Origin: Pseudovibrio exalbescens
GTDB lineage: Bacteria; Pseudomonadota; Alphaproteobacteria; Rhizobiales; Stappiaceae
DNA: 64,000 nt
Direction: 5' to 3'
Assembly (NCBI RefSeq): GCF_028737195.1
Contig: NZ_JAQZAJ010000002.1
Location: forward strand, 558,001-622,000
Part shown: one piece after another, positions 25,489 through 48,040 of the stretch
Position numbering within the stretch: position 1 is the first letter of the stretch
Layout: every line of letters starts with the position of its first letter
Program-made: the position numbers and the translations under genes
Notes under the pieces: model-generated
The model's input: the letters and a program-made list of their open reading frames with translations, nothing else
Database searches by the model: none
What the model was told of the DNA's origin: nothing

Positions 25489-25534
25489 AACGAAGTACTC
25501 CTCGTTTAATCTCTTAGGACAGGTTCACTGGCAA

Positions 25535-26773: not shown

Positions 26774-26863
26774 GGAGAGTTGCCGGAGTGGTCGAACGGG
26801 GCGGTCTCGAAAACCGTTGAGCGCGCAAGCGTTCCGAGGGTTCGAATCCCTCACTCTCCGCCA
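26774..26863 (+). tRNA. tRNA-Ser(CGA)
   Basis: Class II tRNA fold: the acceptor is GGAGAGT/ACTCTCC and the anticodon loop is CTCGAAA between CGGT/ACCG (anticodon CGA). The variable arm is GAGCGCGCAAGCGTTC, the T-arm contains GGTTCGAATCC, and the 3' CCA is encoded (26861-26863). Confidence 0.96.
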
Positions 26864-28385: not shown

Positions 28386-28524
28386 GCTCAACTCCAGCTA
28401 TCGCCGCCTTCGATGGGGTATGGTGCGGCGCGGTAGGTTTGTGTGCGACTGCGCAAAATACTATGCTGCAGATGCTAACACGAGCTGAGAAGAATGCCGA
28501 AGATAGCCGTTAGGTGTAGTTCCC

Positions 28525-28582: not shown

Positions 28583-29476
28583 TCAGATGGAGTGGGTCAT
28601 CCAGTCCGGCCAGATGCCGCTTTTTTTCATGAGGGCGTGGATGTCCAGCCCAGCATAAAGGCCATGACCGGTTACCAGAACGGCCTTCCAGCCCTTGGCC
28701 TTCGCGCCAAGAACATCGGTATGCAGGGTGTCGCCCATCATCGCAATGCGGCTGCGCTCCACTGTCGGAAAACGGCTTTCCACGGCCTCAAACACATTGG
28801 CAAACGGCTTGCCGTAGTAACGTGTTGGAATGTCGAAAGCATCTTGAAGGGCATGGCCAAAGAAGCCGGGCTCCAGACTGAGGCCCGTTTCGCGGGGTGC
28901 CACCAGATCGGGGTTGGCCACCACCAGCGGGCGGGTGGATTTGCGCAGGCTTTCATGCAGCCTCTGTTGGTCTTCTGTTCCCCAGTTGTCTGCACTCAAA
29001 AACAAGAAGCCATCCACCCGGTCATAGTCCGAGCACTCGGATTTAAGGTGGATGTTTGGCAGGGAAAGCTCGCTGCTGGCAAACCCGTCGGGTGCGATCA
29101 CGCCCCAAAGGCCGATGTCTTCTGCTTGTTCAAGATGGCTCTCGCAAACCAACCTGCTGGAGATGATCTCGTCCTTTGAAAAGTCAAAGCCGAGGCGCTC
29201 GAATTTCTGAACGGCTCCTTGCAGCGGATGGCTGGCGGCATTGGTGAGAACGATGACGTGCTTGCCAGCCCGGCGCAATTGATCGATGCGTTCCCGCGCC
29301 CCGGAAATCGCCGTGTTGCCCACGTTCAGCACGCCAAAAGCGTCAAACACAAACAGATCAATTTGATCCATCAACTCATGGAGGCCATTAATGGGCGTGG
29401 CGCTTCCAGATCCAGTGGCGTTCGGCAGGCGGCTGCGGATTTCTTCATAACGTTCGAACGCGGTTTCCGGCTTCAT
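28583..29476 (-). CDS. HAD superfamily hydrolase, class IIA (NagD-like phosphatase)
   Basis: The 297-residue protein has HAD motif I in FVFDAFGVL (first Asp nucleophile, second position Ala-Phe rather than DxD), motif II in VIVLTNAAS and motif IV in MMGDTLHTDVLGAKAKGW. The class IIA cap includes VIAPDGF and VVANPDLVAPRETG. The DAF variation in motif I, with the usual second Asp missing, is notable and could affect catalysis. The ATG at 29476 lies four bases after the GDPD stop, so the two are coupled. A role in handling glycerol phosphate or related phosphomonoesters is inferred from the neighbour. Confidence 0.8.
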   Translation of the reverse strand: MKPETAFERYEEIRSRLPNATGSGSATPINGLHELMDQIDLFVFDAFGVLNVGNTAISGARERIDQLRRAGKHVIVLTNAASHPLQGAVQKFERLGFDFSKDEIISSRLVCESHLEQAEDIGLWGVIAPDGFASSELSLPNIHLKSECSDYDRVDGFLFLSADNWGTEDQQRLHESLRKSTRPLVVANPDLVAPRETGLSLEPGFFGHALQDAFDIPTRYYGKPFANVFEAVESRFPTVERSRIAMMGDTLHTDVLGAKAKGWKAVLVTGHGLYAGLDIHALMKKSGIWPDWMTHSI

Positions 29477-29480
29477 ATGA

Positions 29481-30389
29481 CTAACTTTCAAGGTTTTTCA
29501 GGCGTTCGCGAAGGGCCAAAGCTGTGGCCGGATCGTCGGTAATCATGCCGTCAACGCCGCTTTGCAGGTCTCGGGAGATATCCTCCGGCGTTGTCGCTGT
29601 CCAGGTGATCACTTCGAGCCCAAGCGCTTGAGCCGCCAGCCGCGCCTCGGTCGTCAGGTTGGCGTGATACGGGCTCCAAACAGCCGCGCCAACAGCTTTA
29701 AGTTGCTGCAAAAGGTTGGTGGTTCGTCCGTCAAAGCCAATGGGGGGCAGCCATGGTGACCCCTCATAAAGCGTTCCGGCGTCGCCGTTCTTCGGCAGGG
29801 CCGTCAGGTAGGAACAACGGATTTCTGGGTGCGCCTTGTGAGCAGCATCCAACAGCCCCCAATGGAAGGAATGCATGAAGCTTTGCTTCTCAAGGCCCTT
29901 GGCCTTGATTGCCCTACCAACCAAATCGGCAAACTCGGCCGGATTGGTGATGGCGTCGTCTTCTGGCCGGTGTTTGAGTTCCACCAGAAGCTCAACAGGT
30001 TTGCCGCTGTCACGCACCAGTGCCAAAAACTCATCTAGTGTTGGAACGGGAACGCCAGAGAGCTGTTTTTGGTTCGGGAACTTGGCGGCATACTTCGTGT
30101 CGGGGCGGATCGCCCCCATGTCGAACTGGCGCAGCTCCGCAAGCGTGAGGTCGCGCACCAATGGGCCTTCCTCGCTCAGCCACTTGCCGTTGGCATCGCG
30201 CGTCGTATCCGGCAACAAGGTGTGATTGTGCGTAACAACCGGCACATTGTCTTTGGTCAAGAGCACGTCTAGCTCGATGCCATCAACGCCAAGCTCCAAG
30301 GAATAGGCGAACCCTTCCAGTGTGTTTTCAGGCAAAAGGCACGGCGCGCCACGGTGGGCATAAATCTTTGTCTGGTCGACGTTGGTCAT
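29481..30389 (-). CDS. Glycerophosphodiester phosphodiesterase (UgpQ/GlpQ-like)
   Basis: GDPDs hydrolyse glycerophosphodiesters to glycerol-3-phosphate plus alcohol. The catalytic start YAHRGAPCLLPENTLEGF holds the His-Arg and Glu-Asn motif; metal ligands follow in GIELDVLLTKD and the second catalytic His in PVVTHNHTL. At 302 residues without a clear signal peptide it is probably cytosolic. The ATG at 30389 is chosen; the 30-residue upstream extension is Pro/Ala/Arg-rich and unlikely. It is co-transcribed with the HAD phosphatase downstream. Confidence 0.88.
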   Translation of the reverse strand: MTNVDQTKIYAHRGAPCLLPENTLEGFAYSLELGVDGIELDVLLTKDNVPVVTHNHTLLPDTTRDANGKWLSEEGPLVRDLTLAELRQFDMGAIRPDTKYAAKFPNQKQLSGVPVPTLDEFLALVRDSGKPVELLVELKHRPEDDAITNPAEFADLVGRAIKAKGLEKQSFMHSFHWGLLDAAHKAHPEIRCSYLTALPKNGDAGTLYEGSPWLPPIGFDGRTTNLLQQLKAVGAAVWSPYHANLTTEARLAAQALGLEVITWTATTPEDISRDLQSGVDGMITDDPATALALRERLKNLES

Positions 30390-31879: not shown

Positions 31880-32770
31880 ATGGTGCGAACAGAGCTATCC
31901 TCTGGTGATGCCAACCTGACTGAGCGCTTTGAGGGCTATGCGCAAGAGCCGCACAGCATCAGACGCGTTTTTTATGCGGGCAATCTTCCTGCCCCGCCCC
32001 CGCTTGCCTATCAGGTTCACTTTCCGCGGCTTGAAATGGTGTTGGACGGGCAGTTGCTCATGGAGGTGGGCAACACGACCGGCGACGACACCCAACATTT
32101 GATGACGCGCGGAAGCGCGCTGTACATTCCCGCGGAGAGTTGGAACAAGCCAATCCTCACGCAGCCCGTGGAAACGTTGAGTATCTTGATCGGAAAACAA
32201 AGTTTCGGTCTCAGCATCTTGAAGTGGAATGGTGAGAGTTTTGATGCGGCACTGAAGCACAACATCATGCGCCGAGGGCCAAGAACCGGCACGTTTGTTG
32301 TGCAAGCGCTTGAAGAACTGAGCTGGCATGTTGAGGATCAGCAGACCGCACGGTTGCTGGTGGCTTCGTTGCTGAGCCACATTAGTGAGCTCACACACAA
32401 GGCGCCTGAAATCCCGTCAAAGAGCAAGGCTCTGTTTGAAGCGGTTCGCGGCTATCTTGAGCAGCACTACCATGAGCAGCTCACACGGGAGTCTGTGGCT
32501 AAACACTTCTACATTTCATCGAACTACCTGTCCCAGCTGTTCGCCAAGGAGGGCAAGGTCAAGTTCAATGAGTATCTGAACCACATTCGCTTGGAGCGGG
32601 CCAAATACTTGCTCAAAGAATACGACATGAAGGTGAAGGAGGTGGCCCACCGCTGCGGGTTCGCGGACAGCAATTATTTCTGCCGGATCTTTCGGGCTCA
32701 AACCGCACGCTCACCTTCAGAATACAGAACGCAGTACCGCAGCCGGATGAAGGCAGAAGCTACAGGCTGA
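31880..32770 (+). CDS. AraC family regulator, probable controller of the frw/pflD-like locus
   Basis: This 296-residue regulator has an N-terminal cupin-like ligand domain (residues 1-180, with ALYIPAESWNKP) and a C-terminal double HTH (about 195-292). The AraC signature runs through LTRESVAKHFYISSNYLSQLF and VAHRCGFADSNYFCRIFR. It converges with the IIB gene (frwD-like), overlapping 11 bp tail to tail. E. coli has the AraC-type YijO in the matching place beside frwD. The two-half-site direct repeats upstream of ptsA and frwC (20-bp period) are what an AraC protein would bind. Confidence 0.9.
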   Translation: MVRTELSSGDANLTERFEGYAQEPHSIRRVFYAGNLPAPPPLAYQVHFPRLEMVLDGQLLMEVGNTTGDDTQHLMTRGSALYIPAESWNKPILTQPVETLSILIGKQSFGLSILKWNGESFDAALKHNIMRRGPRTGTFVVQALEELSWHVEDQQTARLLVASLLSHISELTHKAPEIPSKSKALFEAVRGYLEQHYHEQLTRESVAKHFYISSNYLSQLFAKEGKVKFNEYLNHIRLERAKYLLKEYDMKVKEVAHRCGFADSNYFCRIFRAQTARSPSEYRTQYRSRMKAEATG

Positions 32771-33095
32771 TTTTGGTGCCGGGAGGCGCGATCCGCAGCT
32801 TCTCCAGCGCATCAAGCACATGACTTGGGTCTTTCAAAAAAGCACTGATTGTTGAGCGCAGCACACGCGCGTTTTCGAAGCGCTCGTAGCCTTCGATGTT
32901 GATATCGGCGACAATCACAACGGCCTCAGCGTCTGCAATCACGCCCGCTGTCAGCGTGTTTTCTGAGCCAAGCGCACCCTGGGTCTCAACGGTGATCGAG
33001 TGACCGGCTTTTTTAGCTTTTTTTTCAAGGAGTTCAGCAGCCATGTAAGTATGAGCTACGCCACTCAAACAAGCTGTAACACCGACAATTCTCAT
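32760..33095 (-). CDS. frwD: PTS fructose-type EIIB protein (FrwD-like)
   Basis: This 111-residue fructose-family IIB has the phosphorylated cysteine at residue 9 in GVTACLSGVAHTYMAAE and the conserved VETQGALGSENTLT segment. It is the second IIB of the locus and the last gene of the reverse-strand operon, 89 bp after the aldolase gene. I use ATG 33095 because the longer frame starts with an unconserved hydrophobic stretch. E. coli FrwD occupies the same terminal position. Having two IIBs for one IIC could mean alternative coupling or a regulatory role. Confidence 0.85.
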   Translation of the reverse strand: MRIVGVTACLSGVAHTYMAAELLEKKAKKAGHSITVETQGALGSENTLTAGVIADAEAVVIVADINIEGYERFENARVLRSTISAFLKDPSHVLDALEKLRIAPPGTKISL

Positions 33096-33184
33096 AGTTG
33101 CGCCCACACACCACAGAAACCCTAGAGATATCATCTCGTAGGGCCTCTGTAATATGCGCTAAATCAAACCGGCGCAACTCTGAT

Positions 33185-33862
33185 TTAGATGACGTCAAGT
33201 ACTGTTGTGCCTTCCCCGTAAACGCCCTCCCAATCACTTACAAAGCCAGCAACGCCGGAATCTGTAAGGGGGTGAACCAGAAGCTGATCAAAAACGTCCG
33301 GAGCGATCGTGACGGACTGCGCGCCAGCCTTGGCAATTTCGTGCACTTGCTGAACATTTTTAAACGATGCAGCCAGCACCTTGGCGTCCAGCTTATAAAC
33401 ATCGATCAGATGTGCGATCTCTGCGGCCACTTGGGTCCCATCCGCACAAATGTTGTCGAGGCGATTTACGTAAGGTGCCAGGAACTCAGCACCTGCGACA
33501 GCCGCCATCAACGCCTGCTGAGGGGTCAAAATTGCGGTTGCGGTGATGCGAATGCCCCGTTCCTTCAACGCCTTCATGGCTTTGATACCCTGCGGTGTTA
33601 CCGGGACCTTGATGATAATGTCCGCGTCGAGTTCACGCATGGCTTGCGCTTCCTCAATCATGACTTCAGCGGTCTTGCCCATCACTTGTGCGTGCAGCAT
33701 GCGGTCGGGGCCGATGGCCGCCCGAATATCGCGGATGATATCAGAAAATGGACGGTTGGCCTTCGCGATGATTGAAGGGTTTGTGGTCACACCAGCAAGC
33801 GGGTAGAGGTCAACGGCCTTCTTGATCGCTTCGATGTCTGCAGTGTCGAGCATGTAAATCAT
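33185..33862 (-). CDS. fsa: Fructose-6-phosphate aldolase (FSA), transaldolase-like class I aldolase
   Basis: This 225-residue member of the FsaA/FsaB/TalC family has the Schiff-base lysine at residue 85 in DIIIKVPVTPQG, the same number as in E. coli FsaA. Other segments are YMLDTADIEAI, GVTTNPSIIAK, TATAILTPQQA and APYVNRLDN. FSA cleaves fructose-6-phosphate poorly but 1-deoxyfructose-6-phosphate well, giving glyceraldehyde-3-phosphate and hydroxyacetone. Its place in a GRE/PTS operon supports that physiological reaction here. A CTAAATCA/TGATTTAG inverted repeat spans its stop codon (33159-33188). Confidence 0.92.
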   Translation of the reverse strand: MIYMLDTADIEAIKKAVDLYPLAGVTTNPSIIAKANRPFSDIIRDIRAAIGPDRMLHAQVMGKTAEVMIEEAQAMRELDADIIIKVPVTPQGIKAMKALKERGIRITATAILTPQQALMAAVAGAEFLAPYVNRLDNICADGTQVAAEIAHLIDVYKLDAKVLAASFKNVQQVHEIAKAGAQSVTIAPDVFDQLLVHPLTDSGVAGFVSDWEGVYGEGTTVLDVI

Positions 33863-33881
33863 GGGAGCCTCATTTAGTCTC

Positions 33882-34736
33882 TTAGTAGCCGAATTCTCTC
33901 AGGCATTTTGTCAAGGCAGCCTTGCTTTCAGTGAAGCGGATGCCATGGGCTGCAAGTTTGGATGTGTCCAGGCGCACATCGCGGGTCTTTGGTGCGGGCG
34001 CTGCTTCAAGCAGCTCTGCAAGGCGTTTTTCCTGCCCTAGCTCGCGCAGGATATGCTCCGCAATCTCATGGCGGCTGGCGGGGTTGTGAGCCCCGGTATG
34101 GTAGGTGCCATAAGGGATCTCGAAGATTTTCGGGAACTGGTCGATCAGTTCATGCGCATAGGTCAGGCCGCGGAATTCGTTGGGACGCTCCGCCATCTTG
34201 GTGCCGTTGATCAGGGCCTGCATTGCATTCCATAGAACATTCGGGTTGATGCTGGTCTGGCGCTCAGGGAGACCAAACAGCCAAGTGAAACGCAGGATCA
34301 ACATTTCATCGAGGATTTCCCTGAGCTTGCCTTCGGCCTCCAGCTTGTTTTGGCCGTAAACAGTGTCCGGCACTGGCTCGTGCTCTTCTGTATAAGGGCC
34401 AGCTTCTTCGTTGCCGTTGAACACCTGCTCAGTGCTGATGAAAACCAGCTTCGCGCCGACCGCCTTACACGCCTTGGCAACGTTCATGGCACCTTCAACG
34501 TTCACCTTCCATGCGATCTCAGGATGTTTGTTGCAAAAGTCGGTCACGGCAATTGCAGCGGCATGGATTACGTAGTCAGGCTTCACGGAGCTGAACATGG
34601 CGTCCACCATGTCTGCGTTTGTGATGTCCAGCTGCTCAACATCGGTCGCGGTGATATCGAACTGCTCCTGATACTTCTTGATGAAACGGGTTCCAAAAAA
34701 GCCGTTTGCGCCTGTAATCAAGATTTTCTTTTTCAT
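33882..34736 (-). CDS. SDR/RmlD-like NAD(P)-dependent reductase inside the glycyl-radical operon
   Basis: This 284-residue extended SDR is closest in pattern to dTDP-4-dehydrorhamnose reductase (RmlD): ILITGANGFFGTRFIKK Rossmann motif, HAAAIAVTDFC, STEQVFNG, and a catalytic Tyr127-x3-Lys131 in VYGQNKLEAEGKL. No sugar-nucleotide genes surround it. It lies two bases after the activase stop and 19 bp before the aldolase, so it is tightly embedded in the operon. E. coli has GldA in this pathway, reducing hydroxyacetone; this protein might do the same job or process the anhydrosugar. Its substrate is unknown. The ATG at 34736 has a GGTGGG site; a GTG two codons earlier is possible. Confidence 0.8.
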   Translation of the reverse strand: MKKKILITGANGFFGTRFIKKYQEQFDITATDVEQLDITNADMVDAMFSSVKPDYVIHAAAIAVTDFCNKHPEIAWKVNVEGAMNVAKACKAVGAKLVFISTEQVFNGNEEAGPYTEEHEPVPDTVYGQNKLEAEGKLREILDEMLILRFTWLFGLPERQTSINPNVLWNAMQALINGTKMAERPNEFRGLTYAHELIDQFPKIFEIPYGTYHTGAHNPASRHEIAEHILRELGQEKRLAELLEAAPAPKTRDVRLDTSKLAAHGIRFTESKAALTKCLREFGY

Positions 34737-34738
34737 GG

Positions 34739-35638
34739 TCACCCACCAACGTTTACTTTGTAGCCACGCGCTTCAACCAGCGCCTTTATGGCCTCTACTT
34801 CATTGTCTGTCGGAACCGGCACATCCTTGAGCTCGTATTCCATCTCAAAGGTCTCGTACTTGTTGGCTCCGAACTGGTGGAACGGCAGCAGGTGGACCTC
34901 TTTCAAATCAAATTCACTCAGGTAATCGAGAATGGCCTGAATGTTTGCAGCATGCATCGTGTATCCCGGAATAAGCGGAATGCGGGGCACGACATGGGTT
35001 CCCTGCGCAATCAGGCCGCGGAAGTTATCGAGAGAGCGCTGGAGATTGATGCCAGTCGTCTTCTTTGCCGTTTCCGGGTCCATGATCTTTAAGTCATAAA
35101 GAACCTCATCGCAGTACTTGCCCATCTCCATCAACAGGGCTGTATTCCCATGGCCCGTCGTTTCAATTGCCGTGTTGTAGCCAAGGCGCTTCAAGCGCTT
35201 GAGAAGCTCTATGGCAAAGCGGGCCTGTGTCAGAACTTCGCCGCCAGACAGGGTGACGCCGCCGCCAGACGAGCGGTAGAACACGTCATCCTTTTCAATT
35301 TCCTTCAGCAGCTCGTCCATCGTCATGTCGGTGCCCACCAGCTCCAAAGCGCCGCTGGGGCATTCAGCAACATCCCAGGAACACACTTCGCAATGAATGC
35401 ACTTGGTCTCCCGACGTATGACTTGCGGCTTGGACGATCTGGATTCCGGGTTGGAGCACCAGGGGCAGCTCAGCGGGCACCCCTTGAGGAAAACAACCGT
35501 GCGAATGCCTTCGCCATCATTCAGCGAATAACGCTGGATGTTAAACACCCGTCCCGTGGAAGGGGCAGCACCATCGCCGCCGCCCTCCAGACAGTCATTT
35601 GGCTTAGAGCTCATGGGCCGTTCTGCGAATGATGTCAT
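34739..35638 (-). CDS. pflC: Glycyl-radical enzyme activase (PflC-like radical SAM protein)
   Basis: This enzyme installs the glycyl radical on its GRE partner by SAM cleavage. The radical-SAM cluster is CPLSCPWC in LKGCPLSCPWCSNPES, and the FYRSSGGGVTLSGGEVL motif follows. Between them lies a ferredoxin-like insert with only one set of cysteines (CIHCEVCSWDVAEC), where PflC/YjjW-type activases usually carry two. From ATG 35638, which has an AAGGA site, it has 299 residues; ATG 35614 (291 residues) is an alternative. Both overlap the GRE 3' end, so translation is coupled. Confidence 0.9.
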   Translation of the reverse strand: MTSFAERPMSSKPNDCLEGGGDGAAPSTGRVFNIQRYSLNDGEGIRTVVFLKGCPLSCPWCSNPESRSSKPQVIRRETKCIHCEVCSWDVAECPSGALELVGTDMTMDELLKEIEKDDVFYRSSGGGVTLSGGEVLTQARFAIELLKRLKRLGYNTAIETTGHGNTALLMEMGKYCDEVLYDLKIMDPETAKKTTGINLQRSLDNFRGLIAQGTHVVPRIPLIPGYTMHAANIQAILDYLSEFDLKEVHLLPFHQFGANKYETFEMEYELKDVPVPTDNEVEAIKALVEARGYKVNVGG

Positions 35639-37904
35639 CTTGGATTTCCTTGGAGAGCTCGACGAAGAAGGCGCTGTAGCCTGCCACGCGCACCACAAGG
35701 CCTGCAAAGTCCTCCGGGCGCTGCTGCGCTTCCCTGAGAGTGTCCGCATTGAGTACGTTGAACTGGATATGCTGCAGCTTCAGCTTCATGAACGCTCGCA
35801 GGAAGTCGGCAAGCTTGTTCAGGCCCTGCTCGCCTTCCAGTGTGGAGGGCGTGAACTTCACGTTCAGCAAGCTGCCGTTCGACAGAAGGTAGTTGTCAAG
35901 CTTGCTGACGGACTTCAGAACCGCTGTTGGGCCTTTTTGGTCCTTGCCCACCATTGGCGACAAGCCGCCGTCGGCCAGCTGATCACCGCTGTGGCGCCCG
36001 TCTGGCGTTGCGCCAACCACGGCGCCCAGCGGTACGTGGGCTGACACGGTGTACGAGCCGGGGGTGAAAATACCGCCGCGCGGGTTCGCATATTGCTCCA
36101 CTTCCTTGCAGTAGAAGCGCAGGATGTCCGATCCGTATGTGTCGACACCGTCAATGTCGTTTCCGTACTTGTCGTAGCGGTTCATCAGGCGGGCGCGGAT
36201 CTGCTCGCCCTTTTCTCCCTCGAAATTGCTTTCCAGAACTTCGATGAACTCCTTGAAGGTGGCACGCTTTTCGTCGAACACGAATGCCTTCAGCGATGCA
36301 AGTGAGTCTGAAAGGTTGGCAATGCCGATGCCCTGAACACCCGAGAAGTTGTAGCGTGCACCGCCGTAGGTGATGTCCTTGCCGTTGTCGATGCAGTCGC
36401 TGATGAAGGAGGACAGCAATGGCACGGGGGCCCAGTCCCGGTGCCCGATGTCACAGATGTTTGAGCCTTCCGCCATCAGCTTCACATAGTGGCGAATGTC
36501 CTGGCGAATTTCGCTCAGCAGCTGCTCGAAAGTAACCTCGGTGTTGTCCTTGTTGCGATCCAGCACAAGTTCCATCACCTTCAGCAGATTGAACATGGCA
36601 ATGTCGTGCAGACCGTAGGTCTTGCCGGGGATTGAAAGCTCCACGCAGCCGACGACAGAGTAGTCCCGTGCATCTTCCAGCGAGACGCCTCGGTTCAAAA
36701 AGGCAGGAACGACCACTTCGTCATTGAAGATTTGCGGAATGCCCGTACCCATGCGCACGGTCTCTGCGGTCTTGCGCAGGAACTCGCGATCGATCAACTC
36801 GTTCACCCGAACGCCAAGGTTTGGCTGGGGCAGGCGAATGCTCTGATAGGCGTCGAGGCAAAGCGTGGACAGCTCGTTCACCGCGCTTCGACCATTGGCG
36901 GTCAAACCGCCGAGTAGAATGGTATAACCCGTCGGGAACCCGGCGAAGAATTTCGCACTGCCTGTTGAGCGCAGCAGCACAACATCGTTGGTCTTTACCC
37001 AGAGGCTTTCAAGATACTCCTTCAATGCCTCGGGGCTCTCACCTTTTGCAACAGATGCGCGGTAGAAGGGCAGCATGTATTGGTCAAAGCGGCCCAGAGA
37101 CAGAGAGCTTGCGTTGGATTCGTATTGCAAGATCACATTCATGTACCAGAACAGCTGAATGGCTTCGAAAAAGTCCTCAGGCTTTTCTGTTGCGATCTTC
37201 GCGGAGAGCGCCGCGATTTGTAACAGCTCCTTCGCGCGCCCGTCGTCGCCGCAGGTCTTTGCCATTTCGCGCGCCAGCGTTTCATAACGACGAATGTGAC
37301 GGATAGAGGCTTCGAGCAGGATCACGACTGCCGAAAAGAAGGCATTGTCAGGGTTCTTGACGCTGTGGTCTTTCAACTCGTCTAGCAACGCCCCCAAGCC
37401 ATTGCCCAAAAGACGTTCAAAGTCGATGATGATGTGCCCTTGCCCTTTGTCGGTTTGGTTCACGCTGAAGATCTTCTGCGCAGTCGCAGCCTTGATCTCT
37501 TCAGGAAACTGGCTGTTGATGAAGTCCTTCATGGAGCGCTTGGTCCAATAGGGCAGCAGCTCTTCACGGTAGATCTTCTTGTCTTCCTCGCTGATGTGGA
37601 ACTGGTCTTGGGGGCGGGTATCAAAGATATCCAGTTCCTTGTCGAGCCAGTAAGGATCCATCTCGGGGGACATGATACCCGCGCGCGGCTTCACGGTGCG
37701 ATTGCCCGCGATCAGCTCGTCACTGCGGATGGAGATTGCTACATTGTCGAGAATATGTGCGGTCGCGAGAGCCCGGCGCACGAGCGTGTGTTGGCCTTCA
37801 GTCTGTTTGTGGCTTTCTGTGTAGAGCAGGGCGCGTTCAAGAGAAATCTCGCGCTTGTCTTTGAAGAGGTCTGCCTTTAGGCGTTCAATTCTTGGAGTGC
37901 TCAT
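35604..37904 (-). CDS. pflD: PflD-like glycyl radical enzyme, probable 1,5-anhydrohexitol-6-phosphate lyase
   Basis: This 766-residue GRE has the thiyl-radical cysteine at about residue 420 in VVGCVEL and the glycyl-radical site at about Gly742 in VVRVAGYSAFF. The single Cys followed by Val-Glu marks the dehydratase/lyase group, since true pyruvate formate-lyases have Cys-Cys. Length is near-identical to E. coli PflD (765). E. coli PflD and YbiW, as I recall, cleave the C-O bond of 1,5-anhydromannitol- and 1,5-anhydroglucitol-6-phosphate. Adjacent activase, FSA and fructose-type PTS match that pathway. ATG 37904 has a GGAG site. The enzyme requires anaerobic conditions. Confidence 0.92.
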   Translation of the reverse strand: MSTPRIERLKADLFKDKREISLERALLYTESHKQTEGQHTLVRRALATAHILDNVAISIRSDELIAGNRTVKPRAGIMSPEMDPYWLDKELDIFDTRPQDQFHISEEDKKIYREELLPYWTKRSMKDFINSQFPEEIKAATAQKIFSVNQTDKGQGHIIIDFERLLGNGLGALLDELKDHSVKNPDNAFFSAVVILLEASIRHIRRYETLAREMAKTCGDDGRAKELLQIAALSAKIATEKPEDFFEAIQLFWYMNVILQYESNASSLSLGRFDQYMLPFYRASVAKGESPEALKEYLESLWVKTNDVVLLRSTGSAKFFAGFPTGYTILLGGLTANGRSAVNELSTLCLDAYQSIRLPQPNLGVRVNELIDREFLRKTAETVRMGTGIPQIFNDEVVVPAFLNRGVSLEDARDYSVVGCVELSIPGKTYGLHDIAMFNLLKVMELVLDRNKDNTEVTFEQLLSEIRQDIRHYVKLMAEGSNICDIGHRDWAPVPLLSSFISDCIDNGKDITYGGARYNFSGVQGIGIANLSDSLASLKAFVFDEKRATFKEFIEVLESNFEGEKGEQIRARLMNRYDKYGNDIDGVDTYGSDILRFYCKEVEQYANPRGGIFTPGSYTVSAHVPLGAVVGATPDGRHSGDQLADGGLSPMVGKDQKGPTAVLKSVSKLDNYLLSNGSLLNVKFTPSTLEGEQGLNKLADFLRAFMKLKLQHIQFNVLNADTLREAQQRPEDFAGLVVRVAGYSAFFVELSKEIQDDIIRRTAHEL

Positions 37905-37961
37905 CAAAAGCTCCGTGGTGGCTTCGCGTTCGGGAAATTTTTTGAGTATTTTTCGGGGGAA

Positions 37962-37983
37962 GCAGGGAGCCTTAGCTCCCTGC
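37962..37983. other. Hairpin between IIB and the glycyl radical enzyme gene
   Basis: GCAGGGAGC/GCTCCCTGC (9-bp perfect stem, four-base loop) lies between the frwB-like stop and the GRE start. The reverse-strand sequence after it is CTTCCCCCGAAAAA, not a T-run, so it is more likely an mRNA-processing or stability element than a full terminator. Confidence 0.55.
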
Positions 37984-37997
37984 GGGCCGTCTTGGGA

Positions 37998-38318
37998 TCA
38001 GGCAGCCTGGTTGATGTGGGCTTCAATCTTGTCCATCACCGCAGCAGCGCGTTTTACTGCATCGCTTACACCGATGCGGACAATCAGCTTACCTTCAAAG
38101 CGCTCTTGACCTTTGATGTCGATGTCCTTGGTGAGGATGACAACATCTGCTGCTGATACGTCTTCAGCGGTCAGCTCGTTTTCGGTGCCAATGGAGCCCT
38201 GGGTTTCAACTTTACACCCCCAGCCCTTTGCCTTTGCAGCTTGTTCGATTGCTTCAGCGGCCATGTAGGTGTGGGCTACGCCAGATGGGCATGCAGTTAC
38301 TGCTACAACGTTGGTCAT
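37998..38318 (-). CDS. frwB: PTS fructose-type EIIB protein (FrwB-like)
   Basis: This 106-residue IIB has the phospho-cysteine at residue 10 in VTACPSGVAHTYMAAE, followed by VETQGSIGTENELT. It transfers phosphate from the IIA domain (likely that of PtsA) to the sugar entering through the IIC gene 52 bp upstream. It resembles the second IIB (32760-33095) strongly, so the two are paralogues. Order IIC-IIB-GRE-activase matches frwC-frwB-pflD-pflC of E. coli. Confidence 0.9.
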   Translation of the reverse strand: MTNVVAVTACPSGVAHTYMAAEAIEQAAKAKGWGCKVETQGSIGTENELTAEDVSAADVVILTKDIDIKGQERFEGKLIVRIGVSDAVKRAAAVMDKIEAHINQAA

Positions 38319-38370
38319 GATTTTCGCCTTTTGTTTTTAAATGTCGTGTTTGGGTCTGTGCGCTGTTAAA

Positions 38371-39444
38371 TCAGCCGAAGGAGATGTCGAGTTCGCTATC
38401 GTCCTCGGCTTCCTTTTTCGACGGTGCTTCCTTGCGCATTGCCTTGAGGGTGTTCACCATCAGGGCGGTGACGACAGCGCCAACAGCCAGGGCAACAATG
38501 AAGCCGAAGCGACCATCAACAACAGGGAGCACGATGAGGCCGCCCCAGGCTGCGAAACACTCAACGCCCAGCAGAGCTGCGGTTACAGCACCGCATGCAG
38601 TACCAATCATGATGGATGGCAGAACGCGGAGTGGGTCCGCTGCGGCGAAAGGAATTGCGCCTTCGGTGATGCCCACGGTGCCCATCAGGAAGGAGGCGCG
38701 GCCAGCTTCCTGCTCAGTAGGTTCATAAAGCTTCTTGTTGATGAACGTGGCAAGGCCCATGCCAATAGAAGGAACGGCCACAGACACAGCGCTGATACCA
38801 GCAACGTTGTAGATGCCTTCACCCACGCACATGATCACGAAGGCATAGGCCACCTTGTTGACCGGTCCGCCCATGTCGAAAGCGATCATCAGGCCCATCA
38901 CGATTGCAAGAACCACGATGCTGGAATCCTGCATGCCGCGGAGGAATTCGGTCAAGGATGCCGTGGCCATGCCGATGGGCTCACCGATACCCCACACCAT
39001 GACACCAGCCGTGATGAAAGTGCCCACGATTGGGATGACGAAGATCGGCATGATGGAGCGCGCAAACGCTGGCACTTTGATCTTCTTGAGATAGTGCACA
39101 ATGATACCAGCGAGCAGACCGGCGAAGATCGCGCCGAAGAAGCCGGTGTTGTACATGTTCGCGCCAATGAAGGCAGCGATTGCGGCCGGAGCAAGGGCCG
39201 AGCGGTCGGCAATTGAATAGCCGATGTAAGCCGCCAAGATTGGCACCATCAGCTGAAAGCCGGCAACACCAATAAAGAACAGGTCATGAAGCCATGTCCC
39301 TTCAGCAGGAACAGCACCTTCACCGTACAGCATGACAGATGCTGCAAGCAAAATGCCGCCTGCTACCACGAATGGAATCATGTATGACACACCTGTCATC
39401 AGGTGCTGCCTTGTATTTTTCAGGATCAAGATAAGATCATTCAT
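38371..39444 (-). CDS. frwC: PTS fructose-type EIIC permease (FrwC-like)
   Basis: This 357-residue integral membrane permease of the PTS Fru family has roughly nine to ten hydrophobic helices (HLMTGVSYMIPFVVAGGILL; FIGVAGFQLMVPILAAYIGYSIADR). It shows the conserved MGTVGITEGAIPFA segment with the Glu-Gly-Ala-Ile-Pro-Phe substrate-site motif. No IIA or IIB is fused, unlike FruA. ATG 39444 has GGGGAGGA just upstream. It is first in the reverse-strand operon, and the divergent spacer before it holds a 34-bp operator copy. Substrate is inferred as a 1,5-anhydrohexitol. Confidence 0.9.
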   Translation of the reverse strand: MNDLILILKNTRQHLMTGVSYMIPFVVAGGILLAASVMLYGEGAVPAEGTWLHDLFFIGVAGFQLMVPILAAYIGYSIADRSALAPAAIAAFIGANMYNTGFFGAIFAGLLAGIIVHYLKKIKVPAFARSIMPIFVIPIVGTFITAGVMVWGIGEPIGMATASLTEFLRGMQDSSIVVLAIVMGLMIAFDMGGPVNKVAYAFVIMCVGEGIYNVAGISAVSVAVPSIGMGLATFINKKLYEPTEQEAGRASFLMGTVGITEGAIPFAAADPLRVLPSIMIGTACGAVTAALLGVECFAAWGGLIVLPVVDGRFGFIVALAVGAVVTALMVNTLKAMRKEAPSKKEAEDDSELDISFG

Positions 39445-39561
39445 CTGATAATCCTCCCCAGAGAATAAGAACGAATAACGATCGGATGCTTCCAATGGGC
39501 CCGACCTCGATGAGGCCTTTGGAAATCGTCGTCAGTATGAGAAATTTTGTGCTATCCAAGT

Positions 39562-39595
39562 AGAGGACAAAAATACTATTTACTGGATAAATGTT
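39562..39595 (-). promoter_or_regulatory. 34-bp tandem operator copy A, upstream of the IIC-GRE operon
   Basis: On the reverse strand it reads AAC-A-TTTATCCAGTAAA, then TTTTTGTCC. Compared with copy B at 39783-39816, 26 of 34 positions are identical, with the two TTT(A/G)TCC half-sites at the same 20-bp spacing. It lies 118-151 bp before the IIC start. Direct half-sites one to two helical turns apart are typical of AraC-family binding. Confidence 0.78.
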
Positions 39596-39782
39596 AGATA
39601 TATGCCGCGGAGAAATATACGAAAAAGACCTTATGTGAAAATGTATATATTACATTTGTCGTTTTAAGTATCTGATAAATAACTATAAATAATATGGATA
39701 TTGTTGATGTGCGATTTTGCCCTCGGGAACATATCTGATATATGTAGTATTTCTGATGAAGGTGAATGAGGTGTGGTATTCT

Positions 39783-39816
39783 AACGTTTGTCCAGTAAAA
39801 CGAAGTTTTGTCCAAT
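39783..39816 (+). promoter_or_regulatory. 34-bp tandem operator copy B, upstream of ptsA
   Basis: It reads AACGTTTGTCCAGTAAA followed by GTTTTGTCC, with TTTGTCCA at 39787-39794 and 39807-39814 (20-bp period). It is an inverted copy of the element before the IIC operon and ends 79 bp before the ptsA ATG. The likely binder is the AraC protein encoded at 31880. Confidence 0.8.
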
Positions 39817-39895
39817 GGAGCTGCGCGCTGTTCCTCGCTACAGTTCGTTCAACAGCTTGACCCAGAGCTACCCTATTGATTCTGAGGGACACAAA

Positions 39896-42403
39896 ATGAA
39901 AACCTTCACCTTTACTTGCGAGTTGCCAAATGGCGTTCATGCCCGCCCGGCAAACCACGTAGAGACGCTGTGCAACAACTTCACCTCTGAAATAAAGTGG
40001 ACCAACGAACGCACCGGTATCACTGGCAACGCCAAGAGTGTCCTCTCCTTGATTGGTACCGACACCCTTTACAAAGACAGCTGCACCATCTCCATCGAGG
40101 GCGCTGACGAGGGCGAGGCCTATGAAAAGGTCAAGCAATTCATTGATACCGAGTTCGAGCATTGCGACGCGCCTCTGGAGACCGGCGGCGAAGACGCGGG
40201 CGAGTTCCTGCCGTTGCCGCGCAACTTTTCCAACTTGCAGGCAGAACATGTTCGGGGGCGCGCTGTAAGTGGCGGTTTCGGACAAGGCCTGCTGGTTCGC
40301 GTAGGTGCGGTCAACTTCGACAGCCTGACCGATTTGCCCGCAGCCAAGTCAGCCAAGGAGGAGGAAGCCCAGCTTCAAGTTGGTTTTGAAACGCTCGCGC
40401 GCACCTTCAAAGTTCAGTTGGCAAGTGCGGCGGCAACCGAGGCCGATGTGGTCAAGGCCCACCTGGCTATTGTACGGGATGTGGAGTTCAAGGCCACTCT
40501 TGACGGAAATCTGGCGGATGGCGCAAGCGCAGCTGAGGCAGTCATTGCAACGGCAAAGCACTACAGCGCGCAGCTTCAAAACTCCGCCAGCGCTTACATG
40601 CGCGAGCGTGAGTTGGATATTCGCGATGTATGCTTCCAGTTGCTTCAGGCAATCTATGGCGAAGAAAAGTTCTCCAATCAGCTGACGCTCAAAGGGCCAA
40701 CGGTTTGTGTGGCGGACGATCTGACCCCAAGCCAATTCCTTGAGCTGGACAAAAGCCTGCTGAAGGGGCTGATCCTGACCCGCGGCGGCAGCACGTCACA
40801 CACCGTCATTTTGGCGCGCTCTTTTGCGATCCCAACTCTGGTTGGCGTCGATGAAGCCAAGCTCGGCGACAAACTCGGCGCGCAGGTTCTTGTCGATGGT
40901 GATCTCGGCCTGGTCGTAACCGACATCACTGAGCCGGTAGCGCGCTATTACGAGCAGGAGCAGCGTGTTCAAGACGCCGTAAAAGACCGTCAGGCCGCGT
41001 TCAGAGATCAGAAGGGTATGACGGCAGATGGCAAGCCGGTGGAATTGGCGGCAAACATCGCCCACTCCATCGAAGCCTTCCCGGCTTTCAAAAACGGCGC
41101 GGAAGCCATCGGTCTGTTCCGAACCGAGATGCTGTATATGGACCGCACGTCCGCCCCGGATGAAGATGAGCTCTACAACATCTACTGTCAGGCTATTGAA
41201 GCGGCAGAAGGCAAGTCCATCATCATTCGAACCATCGACATCGGTGGCGATAAGCCTGTCGACTATCTGAAGATCCCTGCGGAAAACAACCCGTTCCTCG
41301 GTTACCGTGCCGTTCGTATCTACGAAGAGTTCAGCGACTTGTTTAAGGAACAGCTGCGCTCGATCCTCCGCGCTTCTGCTCATGGTTCCTTGAAGATCAT
41401 GATCCCGATGATCTCTTCCTTGGAAGAAATCCTTTGGGTCAAGGACGTTCTGGCAGAAATTCGTCAGGATCTTCGCAAAGAACACATTCCGTTCGACGAG
41501 AAAATTCCGTTGGGCATCATGGTCGAAGTCCCATCCGTGGCCTTCATCATCGATCAGTGCTGCGAAGAAGTGGATTTTTTCAGCATCGGTAGCAACGACC
41601 TCACTCAGTACCTGATGGCCGTTGACCGGGATAATGCAAAGGTGACCAAGCACTACAACAGCTTGAACCCTGCGTTCTTGCGTACCCTTGATCACATCGT
41701 CAGTTCCGTCCACCGCCACGGCAAGTGGGTTGGCCTCTGCGGTGAACTTGGTGCGAAAGGCTCTGTTCTGCCTCTGCTCATCGGCATGGGTCTTGATGAA
41801 ATCAGCATGAGTGCTCCCAGCATTCCGGCAACCAAAGAGCGTGTCTCCAAGCTCGACAGTCGCGAATGTCGCATCCTGCTCAACAAGGCCATGGAATGCC
41901 GGACCTCCCTGGAGGTGGAACATCTTCTTGCCCAGTTCCGCATGGAACAGTCTGATGCGCCTCTCGTCTCCCAAGAGTGCATCACGCTGGATGTCGACCT
42001 GCGCTCCAAGGAAGAGGTTATCAAGACGCTATCTGATAACCTCTTCCTCGCTGGACGCTGCCGATACCGCGACAAGCTGGCAGATGATTTGTGGGCGCGC
42101 GAAGATGTGTTCTCAACTGGCCTTGGCTTCGGTTTCGCGATCCCGCATACCAAGTCTGAACATATCGAACAGTCAGCGATCAGCGTTTCCCGTCTGGCAC
42201 AGCCAATCCAGTGGGGTGATGAGGAAGCTCAGTTCATCATCATGTTGACGCTGAACAAGCATGCCGCCGGTGACCAGCACATGAAGATCTTCTCAAAGCT
42301 GGCCCGCCGGATCATGCAGGAAGAGTTCCGCAAAAAGCTCATGAACGCGGGATCTGTCGCCGACGTGGAAGCAACCTTGAAGAAAGAATTGGAACTTTCC
42401 TGA
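39896..42403 (+). CDS. ptsA: Fused PTS protein HPr-EI-IIA (PtsA/FrwA-like)
   Basis: This is a complete soluble phosphorelay in one 835-residue chain, near the 833 of E. coli PtsA. HPr covers residues 1-90 with His15 in NGVHARPANH. EI covers about 115-670 with the phospho-histidine in TRGGSTSHTVILARSF and the PEP-domain segments AIGLFRTEMLYMDR and FFSIGSNDLTQYLMAVDR. A C-terminal fructose-type IIA (about 695-833) has the His in GFAIPHTKSEHI. The ATG at 39896 has a GAGGG site and places HPr correctly. It lets the sugar be phosphorylated without the general PTS. It is divergent from IIC and followed by a strong terminator. Confidence 0.95.
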   Translation: MKTFTFTCELPNGVHARPANHVETLCNNFTSEIKWTNERTGITGNAKSVLSLIGTDTLYKDSCTISIEGADEGEAYEKVKQFIDTEFEHCDAPLETGGEDAGEFLPLPRNFSNLQAEHVRGRAVSGGFGQGLLVRVGAVNFDSLTDLPAAKSAKEEEAQLQVGFETLARTFKVQLASAAATEADVVKAHLAIVRDVEFKATLDGNLADGASAAEAVIATAKHYSAQLQNSASAYMRERELDIRDVCFQLLQAIYGEEKFSNQLTLKGPTVCVADDLTPSQFLELDKSLLKGLILTRGGSTSHTVILARSFAIPTLVGVDEAKLGDKLGAQVLVDGDLGLVVTDITEPVARYYEQEQRVQDAVKDRQAAFRDQKGMTADGKPVELAANIAHSIEAFPAFKNGAEAIGLFRTEMLYMDRTSAPDEDELYNIYCQAIEAAEGKSIIIRTIDIGGDKPVDYLKIPAENNPFLGYRAVRIYEEFSDLFKEQLRSILRASAHGSLKIMIPMISSLEEILWVKDVLAEIRQDLRKEHIPFDEKIPLGIMVEVPSVAFIIDQCCEEVDFFSIGSNDLTQYLMAVDRDNAKVTKHYNSLNPAFLRTLDHIVSSVHRHGKWVGLCGELGAKGSVLPLLIGMGLDEISMSAPSIPATKERVSKLDSRECRILLNKAMECRTSLEVEHLLAQFRMEQSDAPLVSQECITLDVDLRSKEEVIKTLSDNLFLAGRCRYRDKLADDLWAREDVFSTGLGFGFAIPHTKSEHIEQSAISVSRLAQPIQWGDEEAQFIIMLTLNKHAAGDQHMKIFSKLARRIMQEEFRKKLMNAGSVADVEATLKKELELS

Positions 42404-42456
42404 CCGCGACACTCTGATGGTGACCCTGCACCTCCCACAGGGCACCATTCCTCCCT

Positions 42457-42497
42457 GGCAGCCCGGCTCCTCCGCGCCGGGTTGCCGCTTTTCTTTT
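42457..42497 (+). terminator. Terminator after ptsA
   Basis: GGCAGCCCGGC (42457-42467) pairs with GCCGGGTTGCC (42476-42486) with one G-T pair, followed by GCTTTTCTTTTT. A second weaker ATGGTG/CACCAT hairpin lies just before it (42417-42447). Confidence 0.87.
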
Positions 42498-42517
42498 TGG
42501 GAGCAGCAGGGAACGCT

Positions 42518-43549
42518 ATGACCGCGATAAAGACAGCACTAGTGGGCTTTGGTATTTCCGGGCAGTCATTTCAGGCACCGATTATCGAGGCTCTGAAAGA
42601 GTTTGAACTGACAAGCGTCGTCTCCAGCAACCCGGCAAAGGTAAAGGGCCAGTTGCCGGATGCGGCTGTCTACGCTTCCCTTGAGGAGCTGCTTGAAAAG
42701 GGTGATGAGGAGCTGGTGGTTATCGCAACCCCGAATGAACTCCATGGCCCGTTTGCAGAAAAGGCCTTGCGCGCAGGCAAGCATGTGGTGGTGGAAAAGC
42801 CGTTCACCATTGAAAGTGCCGAGGGCGAACGCATTGCGGCTCTGGCGCAGGAGTTTGGCCAGAAGCTTAGCATCTATCACAGCCGCCGTTTTGATGGAGA
42901 CTACCTCACCATCAAGAGGTTGATGAATGAGGGCCAGCTGGGCACCGTTCATACCTTGTTTTCAAGCTACAACCGGTTTCGCCCAGAGGTGAAGGTACGT
43001 TGGCGCGAGCAGGACATACCAGGCGCTGGAATTCTTTATGATCTTGGATCTCATTTGATCGATCAGGCTGTATCCCTCTTTGGCGTGCCGCAAGCGGTTA
43101 CGGCCAAGCTGCGCCAGCAGCGTCCGGGTGCTCAGGCCGTTGATCACTTTCACATCTGCCTTGCTTATGAGGGCTGTGATGTAATCGTCCACGGCAATAA
43201 CCTCAGCACCGCCGAGGGCCCGCGCTTTCAGGTGTTTGGCACCAAAGGGGCCTTCATCAAATACGGCATGGACACGCAAGAAGACTTGTTGCGGGAGCTT
43301 AAAGGTCCGGGGTCGGACGGGTGGGGCGAAGACCCGCAAGCTCGGTGGGGAGAGTTCACTGATTCTGAAGGCAAAACAGTATCCGTGCCAACGGAGCGTG
43401 GCGGCTATGAACAGTTCTATCTGGAAATGGCTGCGGCAATTCGCAGCGATGCCCCGGTGCCTGTGGAGCCAAGACAAGCCATAGCCACCATCAAGATCAT
43501 CGAGGCTGCCTACGAAAGCAGCGCCGCAAACAGAACCGTATTTCTGTAG
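42518..43549 (+). CDS. Gfo/Idh/MocA family oxidoreductase (YdgJ/IolU-like)
   Basis: This 343-residue NAD(P)-dependent sugar/polyol dehydrogenase has an N-terminal Rossmann fold (TALVGFGISGQSF), the catalytic KHVVVEKPFTIES segment with Glu-Lys-Pro, and GILYDLGSHLIDQA in the C-terminal domain (Asp and His of the active site). Relatives include scyllo-inositol dehydrogenases, and the wider family contains 1,5-anhydrofructose reductase, which makes 1,5-anhydromannitol. A strong terminator lies between it and ptsA, so a link to the anhydrohexitol locus is only suggestive. It is 16 bp upstream of the UPF0303 gene. Confidence 0.87.
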   Translation: MTAIKTALVGFGISGQSFQAPIIEALKEFELTSVVSSNPAKVKGQLPDAAVYASLEELLEKGDEELVVIATPNELHGPFAEKALRAGKHVVVEKPFTIESAEGERIAALAQEFGQKLSIYHSRRFDGDYLTIKRLMNEGQLGTVHTLFSSYNRFRPEVKVRWREQDIPGAGILYDLGSHLIDQAVSLFGVPQAVTAKLRQQRPGAQAVDHFHICLAYEGCDVIVHGNNLSTAEGPRFQVFGTKGAFIKYGMDTQEDLLRELKGPGSDGWGEDPQARWGEFTDSEGKTVSVPTERGGYEQFYLEMAAAIRSDAPVPVEPRQAIATIKIIEAAYESSAANRTVFL

Positions 43550-43565
43550 TCTATCGAGGCGCGAC

Positions 43566-44048
43566 ATGTCAGAACTTCTGCACACCCTGCTTGAACAGGA
43601 AAGCCGACTTCAGTTCACCTGGTTTTCTCATGATCGGGCTTGGGATCTGGGCTGTGCCCTTAAAGCCGCTGCGGAAGAACGCGGGGCGAGTGTGGCAATC
43701 GATATCACGATGAACGGCTTGACCCTGTTCTCATTTGTCATGTCTGGTGCGCGTGGTGACAATCTTGAATGGGTGCGGCGCAAGAAGCACTCAGTGGACC
43801 GTTATCATCACAGCACCTGGTACCTTGGCAACTATTATAAGGCCAAGGGAAAGAGCATGTACGACGACTCTGGCGTCGATCCAAAAGATTTTGCATCCCA
43901 TGGTGGCAGTTTCCCTTTGATCATTCGTGATGTAGGGGTAGTTGGATCAATCACGGTTTCCGGTCTACCACAGGAACAAGATCACCAACTCATTGTAGAC
44001 GTGCTCTTTGAGTTCCTTGATGAGGATGAAAAGGCTCTGACCGACTAA
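43566..44048 (+). CDS. UPF0303/heme-degrading-domain (HbpS/GlcG-like) protein
   Basis: This 160-residue protein belongs to the Haem_degrading (DUF336) superfamily, UPF0303 branch. Segments are LTLFSFVMSGARGDNLEWVRRK, HHSTWYLGNYYKAKGKS, and FPLIIRDVGVVGSITVSGLPQEQDHQLIVDVL. Despite the family name, heme binding has been shown only for some members, and this branch is uncharacterised. Close spacing to the Gfo/Idh gene suggests co-transcription, a pairing seen in sugar-catabolic clusters. Confidence 0.83.
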   Translation: MSELLHTLLEQESRLQFTWFSHDRAWDLGCALKAAAEERGASVAIDITMNGLTLFSFVMSGARGDNLEWVRRKKHSVDRYHHSTWYLGNYYKAKGKSMYDDSGVDPKDFASHGGSFPLIIRDVGVVGSITVSGLPQEQDHQLIVDVLFEFLDEDEKALTD

Positions 44049-45804: not shown

Positions 45805-45955
45805 TCGTGCAAACTACGCAGGAATGTAATGCATGACTAGAGGTTTTTAGCAGTCTGCGCATGAAATAAAACCTCGAAAGCGACGCACGGTTTGTCTAAG
45901 TACTACAACTAGGCCGTGTTGGCATTGTCTCGCAGGATGAACAACGGAGTGTGAA

Positions 45956-46729: not shown

Positions 46730-46750
46730 TACCTAGTGATGTATGGATTA

Positions 46751-46788
46751 GGTGAAGAGCGTCAACCATTTGGCGCTCTTCACCTTTT
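46751..46788 (+). terminator. Terminator after the SDR gene
   Basis: GGTGAAGAGCG (46751-46761) pairs perfectly with CGCTCTTCACC (46774-46784), followed by TTTT. Confidence 0.88.
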
Positions 46789-46941
46789 AATCACACTGGT
46801 TTTACTGTACCCATTGAAGCACTCTAAAATAGTCTGGGCACCCATAGGGGTTTTGCCATGAAACGGGGTGCAAAGAGGATCGGTGCAGGTGTTCGCGTGT
46901 CGCCAGTTTGAACGACAGAGCTCAGGGCTCGGGAGGTGCGT

Positions 46942-47997: not shown

Positions 47998-48040
47998 GGG
48001 TGCTTGGGACACCTTCAGACAACAATCATGGGGAGTATCA

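Follow-up and report, generated by a model that had tools for sequence, protein, structure and literature searches.

By its sequence, the gene cluster described here is a marine form, of the Vibrionaceae type, of the PflD anhydroglycolysis locus, present in a Pseudovibrio relative. The cluster lies in the analyzed window, a 64,000-nucleotide stretch of DNA, and we consider it probable that it supports an anaerobic PflD branch and has a transferred, Vibrionaceae-type origin. The identity, order and orthology of the genes, their nesting among vibrios and their co-occurrence were read from the sequences, and the PflD, FSA and PTS steps are predicted by orthology to E. coli.

For comparison of gene content, we used 14 marine PflD loci and 67 other PflD loci. 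In the window, a PTS with a PtsA fusion, an FSA-type aldolase and an AraC regulator are all located beside a glycyl radical enzyme (GRE) and its activase. The complete set of features is as follows.

31880..32770, plus strand: regulator of the AraC family in the YijO position, its gene converging on that of the distal IIB
32760..33095, minus strand: distal fructose-type PTS IIB (FrwD position), start chosen by eye
33185..33862, minus strand: FSA-type aldolase of the marine type, Lys85 present (PRK12656, 226.5 bits, cut-off 214)
33882..34742, minus strand: RmlD-like extended SDR (159.9 bits, below the curated RmlD cut-off of 224.05)
34739..35614, minus strand: glycyl radical enzyme activase, PflC type (PRK10076, 419 bits, cut-off 326)
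35604..37907, minus strand: PflD-type GRE, 767 aa (matches PRK09983 and 8yjo)
37998..38318, minus strand: proximal fructose-type PTS IIB (FrwB position; PRK10474, 181.3 bits, cut-off 135)
38371..39444, minus strand: PTS IIC (FrwC position) with a start selected by eye (PRK10478, 574.9 bits, cut-off 426)
39896..42403, plus strand: PtsA, fused HPr-EI-IIA (HPr, EI and EIIA_2 domains), likely ATG at 39896
42518..43549, plus strand: Gfo/Idh/MocA oxidoreductase resembling YvaA; present in 7 of the 14 marine loci and in none of the 67 others
43566..44048, plus strand: HbpS-like protein, its gene immediately following that of the Gfo/Idh oxidoreductase; present in 13 of the 14 marine loci and in none of the 67 others

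The minus-strand genes follow the order IIC, IIB, GRE, activase, SDR, FSA and IIB; PtsA lies on the plus strand and is transcribed away from IIC. The likely start of the activase, selected by eye, overlaps the 3' end of the GRE gene. We take PRK09983, PRK10076, PRK10474 and PRK10478 to be the models for PflD, PflC, FrwB and FrwC, respectively. Against PRK10427, the equivalog model that fits it best, the distal IIB reaches 124.9 bits, short of the cut-off of 153; it scores above the cut-off of the IIB domain model TIGR00829 (95.2 bits, cut-off 76.85), and the AraC regulator is 47-91% identical to the products of convergent AraC genes in relatives. The sole marine locus without an HbpS-like gene is a 6.7-kb contig. 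FNR-like boxes in the window gave no signal (29 counted, 24.5 expected).

The E. coli ptsA-fsa-gldA / frwCB-pflDC-frwD / yijO locus contains the same PTS, PtsA fusion, PflD, activase, two IIBs and AraC regulator, in the same order and orientation. In E. coli, fsa and gldA lie behind ptsA and there is no SDR, whereas the window locus has additional SDR and HbpS-like genes, an FSA of another type located behind the SDR (34-43% identical to FSAs of non-marine loci), and no gldA. Unlike the E. coli locus, relatives of the window locus are also linked to a PhyH-family oxygenase and, in some cases, to ManA. A preliminary description of this DNA had named the core genes and their arrangement, with divergent PtsA and IIC and convergent AraC and IIB, and all of them were recovered at the coordinates listed above; the match to E. 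coli that it claimed holds for the layout but not for the gene set. Its gene list omitted the SDR, and its span ended before the Gfo/Idh and HbpS-like genes.

Judged from its residues, the GRE is a PflD orthologue. It exceeds the curated threshold of PRK09983 (1478.6 bits, cut-off 1109), is 75% identical to E. coli PflD, and has the PflD structure 8yjo as its best PDB match (1293 bits, compared with 468 bits for YbiW, which sets YbiW itself apart). The motifs GCVE (starting at residue 420) and RVAGYSA (starting at residue 740), which carry the catalytic Cys and Glu and the radical Gly of GREs, are present, as is Lys85 of the FSA, all as previously noted. Of 212 diagnostic positions, chosen because they distinguish PflD from a single YbiW, 200 carry the PflD residue. 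In the tree, the GRE groups with PflD, and the two distant GREs in the data set branch outside; the tree was built without YbiW, which was compared at the diagnostic positions instead. The proposed comparison with PflD and YbiW thus placed the enzyme with PflD and with no other GRE class. The 1,5-anhydrohexitol route suggested in the preliminary description is retained in its core, and the putative substrate is narrowed, the more specific reading being 1,5-anhydromannitol-6-P rather than any 1,5-anhydrohexitol phosphate. According to a review, PflD acts on anhydromannitol-6-P, and the YbiW route from 1,5-anhydroglucitol-6-P uses the same GRE superfamily and leads to the same product, 1-deoxyfructose-6-P (PMC12441222).

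That the GRE has come to act on a different substrate, such as 1,5-anhydroglucitol-6-P or some other sugar phosphate, appears improbable. The 75% identity to E. coli PflD and the 12 of 212 diagnostic positions at which it departs from enteric PflD would be compatible with such a change, but the remaining pathway parts are retained and the PhyH-ManA pairing described below points to the manno form. Moreover, a separate YbiW orthologue adjoins PflD in Photobacterium lipolyticum, which indicates that the anhydroglucitol-6-P task has its own enzyme there. Possession of a PflD locus need not imply brisk use of the substrate, since anhydromannitol is a poor fermentation substrate for the gut microbiota of humans and rats (PMC13259140).

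The GRE nests in a Vibrionaceae clade (17 marine rows, SH-aLRT 100 by a quick method), and the locus was found in just 2 of 16 genomes of the same genus. Together, these observations suggest that the locus was gained by horizontal transfer, apparently from vibrios. Among 385 sampled genomes of the class, a GRE orthologue was detected in the window genome only, and two others contain relatives with 31-33% identity; the locus is thus not typical of Alphaproteobacteria, contrary to the label "alphaproteobacterial" under which it was previously presented. The G+C content of the locus (0.543, versus 0.562 and 0.569 in the flanks) is not decisive for transfer. The PflD route, known from E. coli and gut bacteria (PMC12441222), is now seen in a marine alphaproteobacterium.

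In the proposed pathway, the PTS would import and phosphorylate either a 1,5-anhydrohexitol or the corresponding 2-keto compound. Under anaerobic conditions, PflD in its activated state would open 1,5-anhydromannitol-6-P to 1-deoxyfructose-6-P, and FSA would split the latter into glyceraldehyde-3-P and hydroxyacetone. With oxygen, PhyH could hydroxylate C1 of 1,5-anhydromannitol-6-P, yielding mannose-6-P for ManA. Before this branch point, the SDR may reduce 1,5-anhydrofructose-6-P to 1,5-anhydromannitol-6-P. We give slightly less than an even chance to the existence of two outlets chosen by oxygen, an anaerobic one through PflD and FSA and an aerobic one through PhyH to mannose-6-P; that these two outlets and the SDR feed from 1,5-anhydrofructose-6-P all operate together is doubtful.

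The SDR gene is located between the activase and FSA genes, and it was found in all 14 marine PflD loci, in none of the 67 others, and in each of the 15 PflD-positive genomes among 148 Vibrio genomes. Altogether, 24 SDR loci were identified in 329 Vibrionaceae genomes, 23 of them with adjoining GRE, activase and FSA pieces and one without; 23 of the 24 orthologues lie between activase and FSA, and the remaining one between two IIBs. The GRE-less Vibrio locus keeps PtsA, IIC, IIB, SDR, IIB, AraC, PhyH and ManA, and lacks GRE, activase and FSA. The SDR shares its sequence family and the YxxxK motif with RmlD, the dTDP-4-dehydrorhamnose reductase (T104 and Y129xxxK133 are present), but it differs by its sub-cut-off score, by STEQVF in place of STDYVF, and by its tie to a catabolic PTS locus; no rhamnose-synthesis context was seen for the orthologues in the 24 Vibrionaceae loci. 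Extended SDRs of the RmlD type usually act on sugars. The structure model (mean pLDDT 62.8) was too weak for a fold search, and relatives in Enterococcus and Persicobacter (37-41% identity) have no clear pathway context.

Since the GRE-less Vibrio locus retains the SDR together with the PTS and AraC genes, we place the SDR upstream of both outlets, a placement drawn from this single locus, and tentatively propose the reduction of 1,5-anhydrofructose-6-P to 1,5-anhydromannitol-6-P as its most likely reaction. Our first idea had been a plain E. coli-like pathway with the SDR as a straight substitute for GldA, reducing hydroxyacetone to 1,2-propanediol behind FSA; in the primary E. coli paper, GldA reportedly handles hydroxyacetone. 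The SDR gene immediately precedes fsa, no GldA was found in the window and none was detectable in the window genome (best match 20.8 bits), and 11 of the 14 marine loci lack GldA within the compared stretch. This reading was demoted, and is now regarded as unlikely, because the SDR is intact in the locus without GRE, activase and FSA, where its usual place is between the two missing blocks, and because SDR and GldA co-occur in 3 of the 14 marine loci and on a Vibrio plasmid; the usual activity of such SDRs on sugars also speaks against it.

The PhyH gene resides elsewhere in the window genome, unlinked to the locus; within the window, neither PhyH nor ManA gave a match at 1e-10. This oxygenase, perhaps serving an aerobic route, was absent from the earlier interpretation. 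Its product matches PF05721 (88.8 bits, cut-off 22) and contains the HxD...H motif (H128, D130 and H206, invariant in 5 aligned rows), which provides the metal ligands of Fe/2-oxoglutarate oxygenases. It is 78% identical to a Vibrio plasmid copy and falls outside the Vibrio copies in the PhyH tree, suggesting separate acquisition. PhyH matches at 1e-12 occur in 31 of the 385 class genomes; apart from the window genome's own copy, none exceeds 45% identity over the aligned segments or 142.8 bits. A relative in Bradyrhizobium (36% identity) has no clear pathway context.

From genomic context, we judge the chances evenly balanced that PhyH hydroxylates C1 of 1,5-anhydromannitol-6-P with oxygen to give mannose-6-P. 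Among Vibrio genomes, PhyH is present in 11 of 15 with PflD and 1 of 133 without it (Fisher p 1.2e-12, uncorrected for kinship). Its unlinked location and separate descent in the window genome, its absence from 15 of 29 PflD-positive genomes tested, and the disregard of kinship in the Fisher test would fit a PhyH unrelated to the pathway and associated with it through shared habitat or kinship. We nevertheless consider this unlikely, given that PhyH is linked directly to PflD in vibrio, Klebsiella, Kluyvera, Raoultella and Yersinia loci, that GRE, activase, PhyH and AraC are clustered in Kluyvera, that PhyH and ManA are kept in the GRE-less locus, and that FSA is nearby in none of the 12 PhyH loci among the 67 non-marine ones. 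PhyH also occurs in 7 of 14 marine loci with FSA alongside, so that the mutual exclusion of FSA and PhyH is limited to the 67 non-marine loci. Adjacency of ManA to PhyH would agree with the putative C1 hydroxylation, but only 3 of the 9 marine loci with PhyH that were examined show it (L009, L084, L133). Also counting against the aerobic branch, ManA is present without PhyH in V. harveyi, and the P. exalbescens genome G006 has the locus and no PhyH. The Rahnella and Serratia PhyH copies, located beyond the compared PflD flanks, adjoin AraC genes whose products are 47-48% identical to the AraC of the locus.

The aerobic 1,5-anhydrofructose route of Sinorhizobium morelense follows the same scheme, from anhydrofructose through anhydromannitol to mannose, that is predicted here for the phosphates. 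That route uses a dedicated reductase and, as described in PMC12441222, an unidentified P450-like hydroxylase; for the aerobic rhizobial route, the same review has anhydromannitol converted to mannose through hydroxylation at C1 by an enzyme yet to be identified. The window organism would instead employ an RmlD-like SDR and a PhyH oxygenase, putatively on PTS products. If this is true, PhyH would be the phosphate-level counterpart of the hydroxylase in the aerobic anhydromannitol route, and the SDR of the marine forms would let products of algal alpha-glucan lyase enter via 1,5-anhydrofructose-6-P, which lends some support to the anhydrofructose source suggested earlier. The SDR and PhyH proposals were not found in print in a literature search made mostly without subscription papers. 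An oxygen-using enzyme for the related 1,5-anhydroglucitol, described as a damage product in PMC12965863, would be medically useful according to PMC12441222; the proposed PhyH is a candidate for the manno form only, not for 1,5-anhydroglucitol. The candidate oxygenase would lift the anaerobic limit, and the candidate SDR would open the route to anhydrofructose.

The Gfo/Idh protein was also considered as an anhydrofructose reductase. We did not adopt this assignment, since its gene is present in 7 of the 14 marine loci and, among solved structures, the protein is closest to YvaA (323 bits), well ahead of the anhydrofructose reductase 2glx, presumably from Sinorhizobium morelense (48.9 bits).

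The locus (31880..44048) contains all the genes named in the preliminary description, in the order claimed there, as judged by gene calls and model matches. Its main block comprises the following genes:

39444 down to 32760, minus strand: IIC, IIB, the PflD-type glycyl radical enzyme (GRE), its activase, an RmlD-like reductase (SDR), FSA and a second IIB, in that order

PtsA is divergent from IIC, and AraC is convergent with the distal IIB. With 1478.6 bits, the GRE clears the cut-off (1109) of the equivalog model PRK09983, and the activase passes PRK10076. The gene order is that of the E. coli locus; however, the latter has fsa-gldA behind ptsA and lacks the SDR that is present in the window. 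The primary paper is said to assign roles in the E. coli PflD route to FsaB and GldA. The HbpS-like and Gfo/Idh genes behind PtsA also seem to be members of the locus. The locus is a variant of the already known PflD type, and its comparison with relatives yields two concrete new enzyme hypotheses, one for the SDR and one for PhyH, an Fe/2-oxoglutarate oxygenase-family gene outside the window. Acetate kinase-like and HAD-type genes (27237-28391 and 28583-29491, named by eye) lie 2-5 kb off the locus.

Aligned with solved structures, the window GRE is far closer to PflD (8yjo, 1293 bits) than to YbiW (8id7 and 8yjn, 468 bits). We defined 212 diagnostic positions as those invariant in 68 non-marine PflD rows and different in a single YbiW orthologue (from Photobacterium lipolyticum); the window GRE has the PflD residue at 200 of them and another residue at 12. 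According to the review PMC12441222, PflD converts 1,5-anhydromannitol-6-P to 1-deoxyfructose-6-P. The core of the earlier proposal, an anhydrohexitol route, stands, with a narrower substrate and an origin of the locus other than proposed. In P. lipolyticum, the YbiW orthologue, which scores 1344 bits against the YbiW structure, its activase and a second FSA lie directly behind the PflD locus (L053:17459-21614), so that two anhydrohexitol GREs adjoin each other. In one Vibrio genome (G483:C40:341990-343837), the PflD match ends at residue 617 of 767.

The host may well be able to live without oxygen, since its genome encodes an apparent ordinary pyruvate formate-lyase and its activase (named by eye), and since glucose fermentation by two strains of Pseudovibrio yields mainly formate, lactate, acetate and ethanol, according to PMC3806328. 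GldA was not detectable in this genome (best match 20.8 bits), and hydroxyacetone may thus be excreted or have a different reductase.

In a tree of 87 GRE rows, built by a quick method without bootstrap, the window and G006 (a second genome of the genus, called P. exalbescens) fall inside a 17-row clade with SH-aLRT 100, the remaining 15 rows of which are Vibrionaceae where named and otherwise genomes reached via those. Only these two of the 16 genus genomes have a PflD orthologue, and among 385 sampled genomes of the class only the window's own genome and two relatives of 31-33% pass at 1e-100. The nesting among Vibrionaceae and the scarcity in the genus point to horizontal transfer of the locus, apparently from vibrios. 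The window genome and G006 carry it at a common place: the G006 flanks match 21562-26868 and 45940-59096 of the window, and 26.9-31.9 kb is left unaligned. The locus is also present on one Vibrio plasmid.

We compared the best 80 genome loci of 182 reported relatives, together with the window, and at blast thresholds they form two kinds, 14 marine (Vibrionaceae-type, including the window) and 67 others (non-marine). The SDR is present in all 14 marine loci, and the marine FSA and HbpS-like gene in 13, the exception being a 6.7-kb contig. Within the locus stretches examined, none of the 67 others has the SDR, HbpS-like or Gfo/Idh gene, and FSA and GldA occur in 50 and 32 of them, respectively. 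Among 148 Vibrio genomes, 17 have the SDR with at least 69% identity (matches of 31-39% were counted as RmlD), namely all 15 PflD-positive genomes (threshold 1e-250) plus G463 and G491. In G463 the GRE is split into two frames (L134:8081-10493) and the rest of the locus is complete. The G491 locus retains PfkB, HbpS-like, PtsA, IIC, IIB, SDR, IIB, AraC, PhyH and the mannose-6-P enzyme gene ManA, and lacks GRE, activase and FSA. It is the sole exception among the 24 SDR-bearing genomes of 329 Vibrionaceae; in the other 23, G463 included, GRE, activase and FSA pieces adjoin the SDR. That the SDR is intact in G491 between two missing blocks argues, from one locus, for a role that does not concern the FSA product. 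By the curated cut-off the protein is not RmlD, and it carries STEQVF in place of the STDYVF of RmlD. Our best guess, a tentative one, is reduction of 1,5-anhydrofructose-6-P, which would suit the SDR's position before both branches and its restriction to marine loci. An anhydrofructose-forming lyase occurs in red algae, according to the review PMC12441222. On an Enterococcus raffinosus plasmid (L149:3504-8864), a 37% SDR relative lies directly behind a DeoC-like aldolase gene and adjoins genes for a mannose-type PTS and a ManA-like protein (named by eye), with a GRE (40%) about 6 kb off.

On the Vibrio plasmid, PhyH and ManA lie behind AraC. PhyH is present in 7 of the 14 marine loci, there beside FSA, and in 12 of the 67 others, none of the 12 with FSA or GldA nearby; ManA adjoins it in three of nine marine PhyH loci read (L009, L084, L133). 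PhyH is flanked by the distal IIB and AraC in Klebsiella oxytoca, and a small Kluyvera cluster (L015:9848-14984) consists of GRE (PflD), activase, PhyH and AraC, with no adjoining PTS genes. In Rahnella and Serratia, PhyH lies outside the PflD flanks examined and adjoins an AraC 47-48% identical to that of the locus; in Vibrio G524, a distance of about 0.8 Mb separates PhyH from PflD. Of 29 PflD-positive genomes searched from the 80, 14 have PhyH (68-79% identity) and 15 do not. Across the 148 Vibrio genomes, it occurs in 11 of 15 PflD-positive versus 1 of 133 PflD-negative genomes, the one being G491 (Fisher p 1.2e-12, kinship ignored). The HxD...H residues are present. PhyH would hydroxylate C1 of anhydromannitol-6-P to give mannose-6-P, a product that fits the presence of ManA beside it. 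In V. harveyi, GldA, a HAD-family protein and ManA lie behind AraC (L010:16455-19518), in a genome with no PhyH match.

The window's own genome has one PhyH copy:

C1:988739-989512: PhyH, 78% identical to the Vibrio plasmid copy

The sole other match among the genus genomes is 27% identical (G008). No locus gene adjoins the own copy, and in the PhyH tree, where some long rows make its placement unsure, it stands beside enteric copies instead of among Vibrio ones, which points to a probable acquisition separate from that of the locus. On both sides of this lone PhyH (L108:885-2430 and 10368-10913) are open frames with recurring peptide motifs, possibly intergenic repeats.
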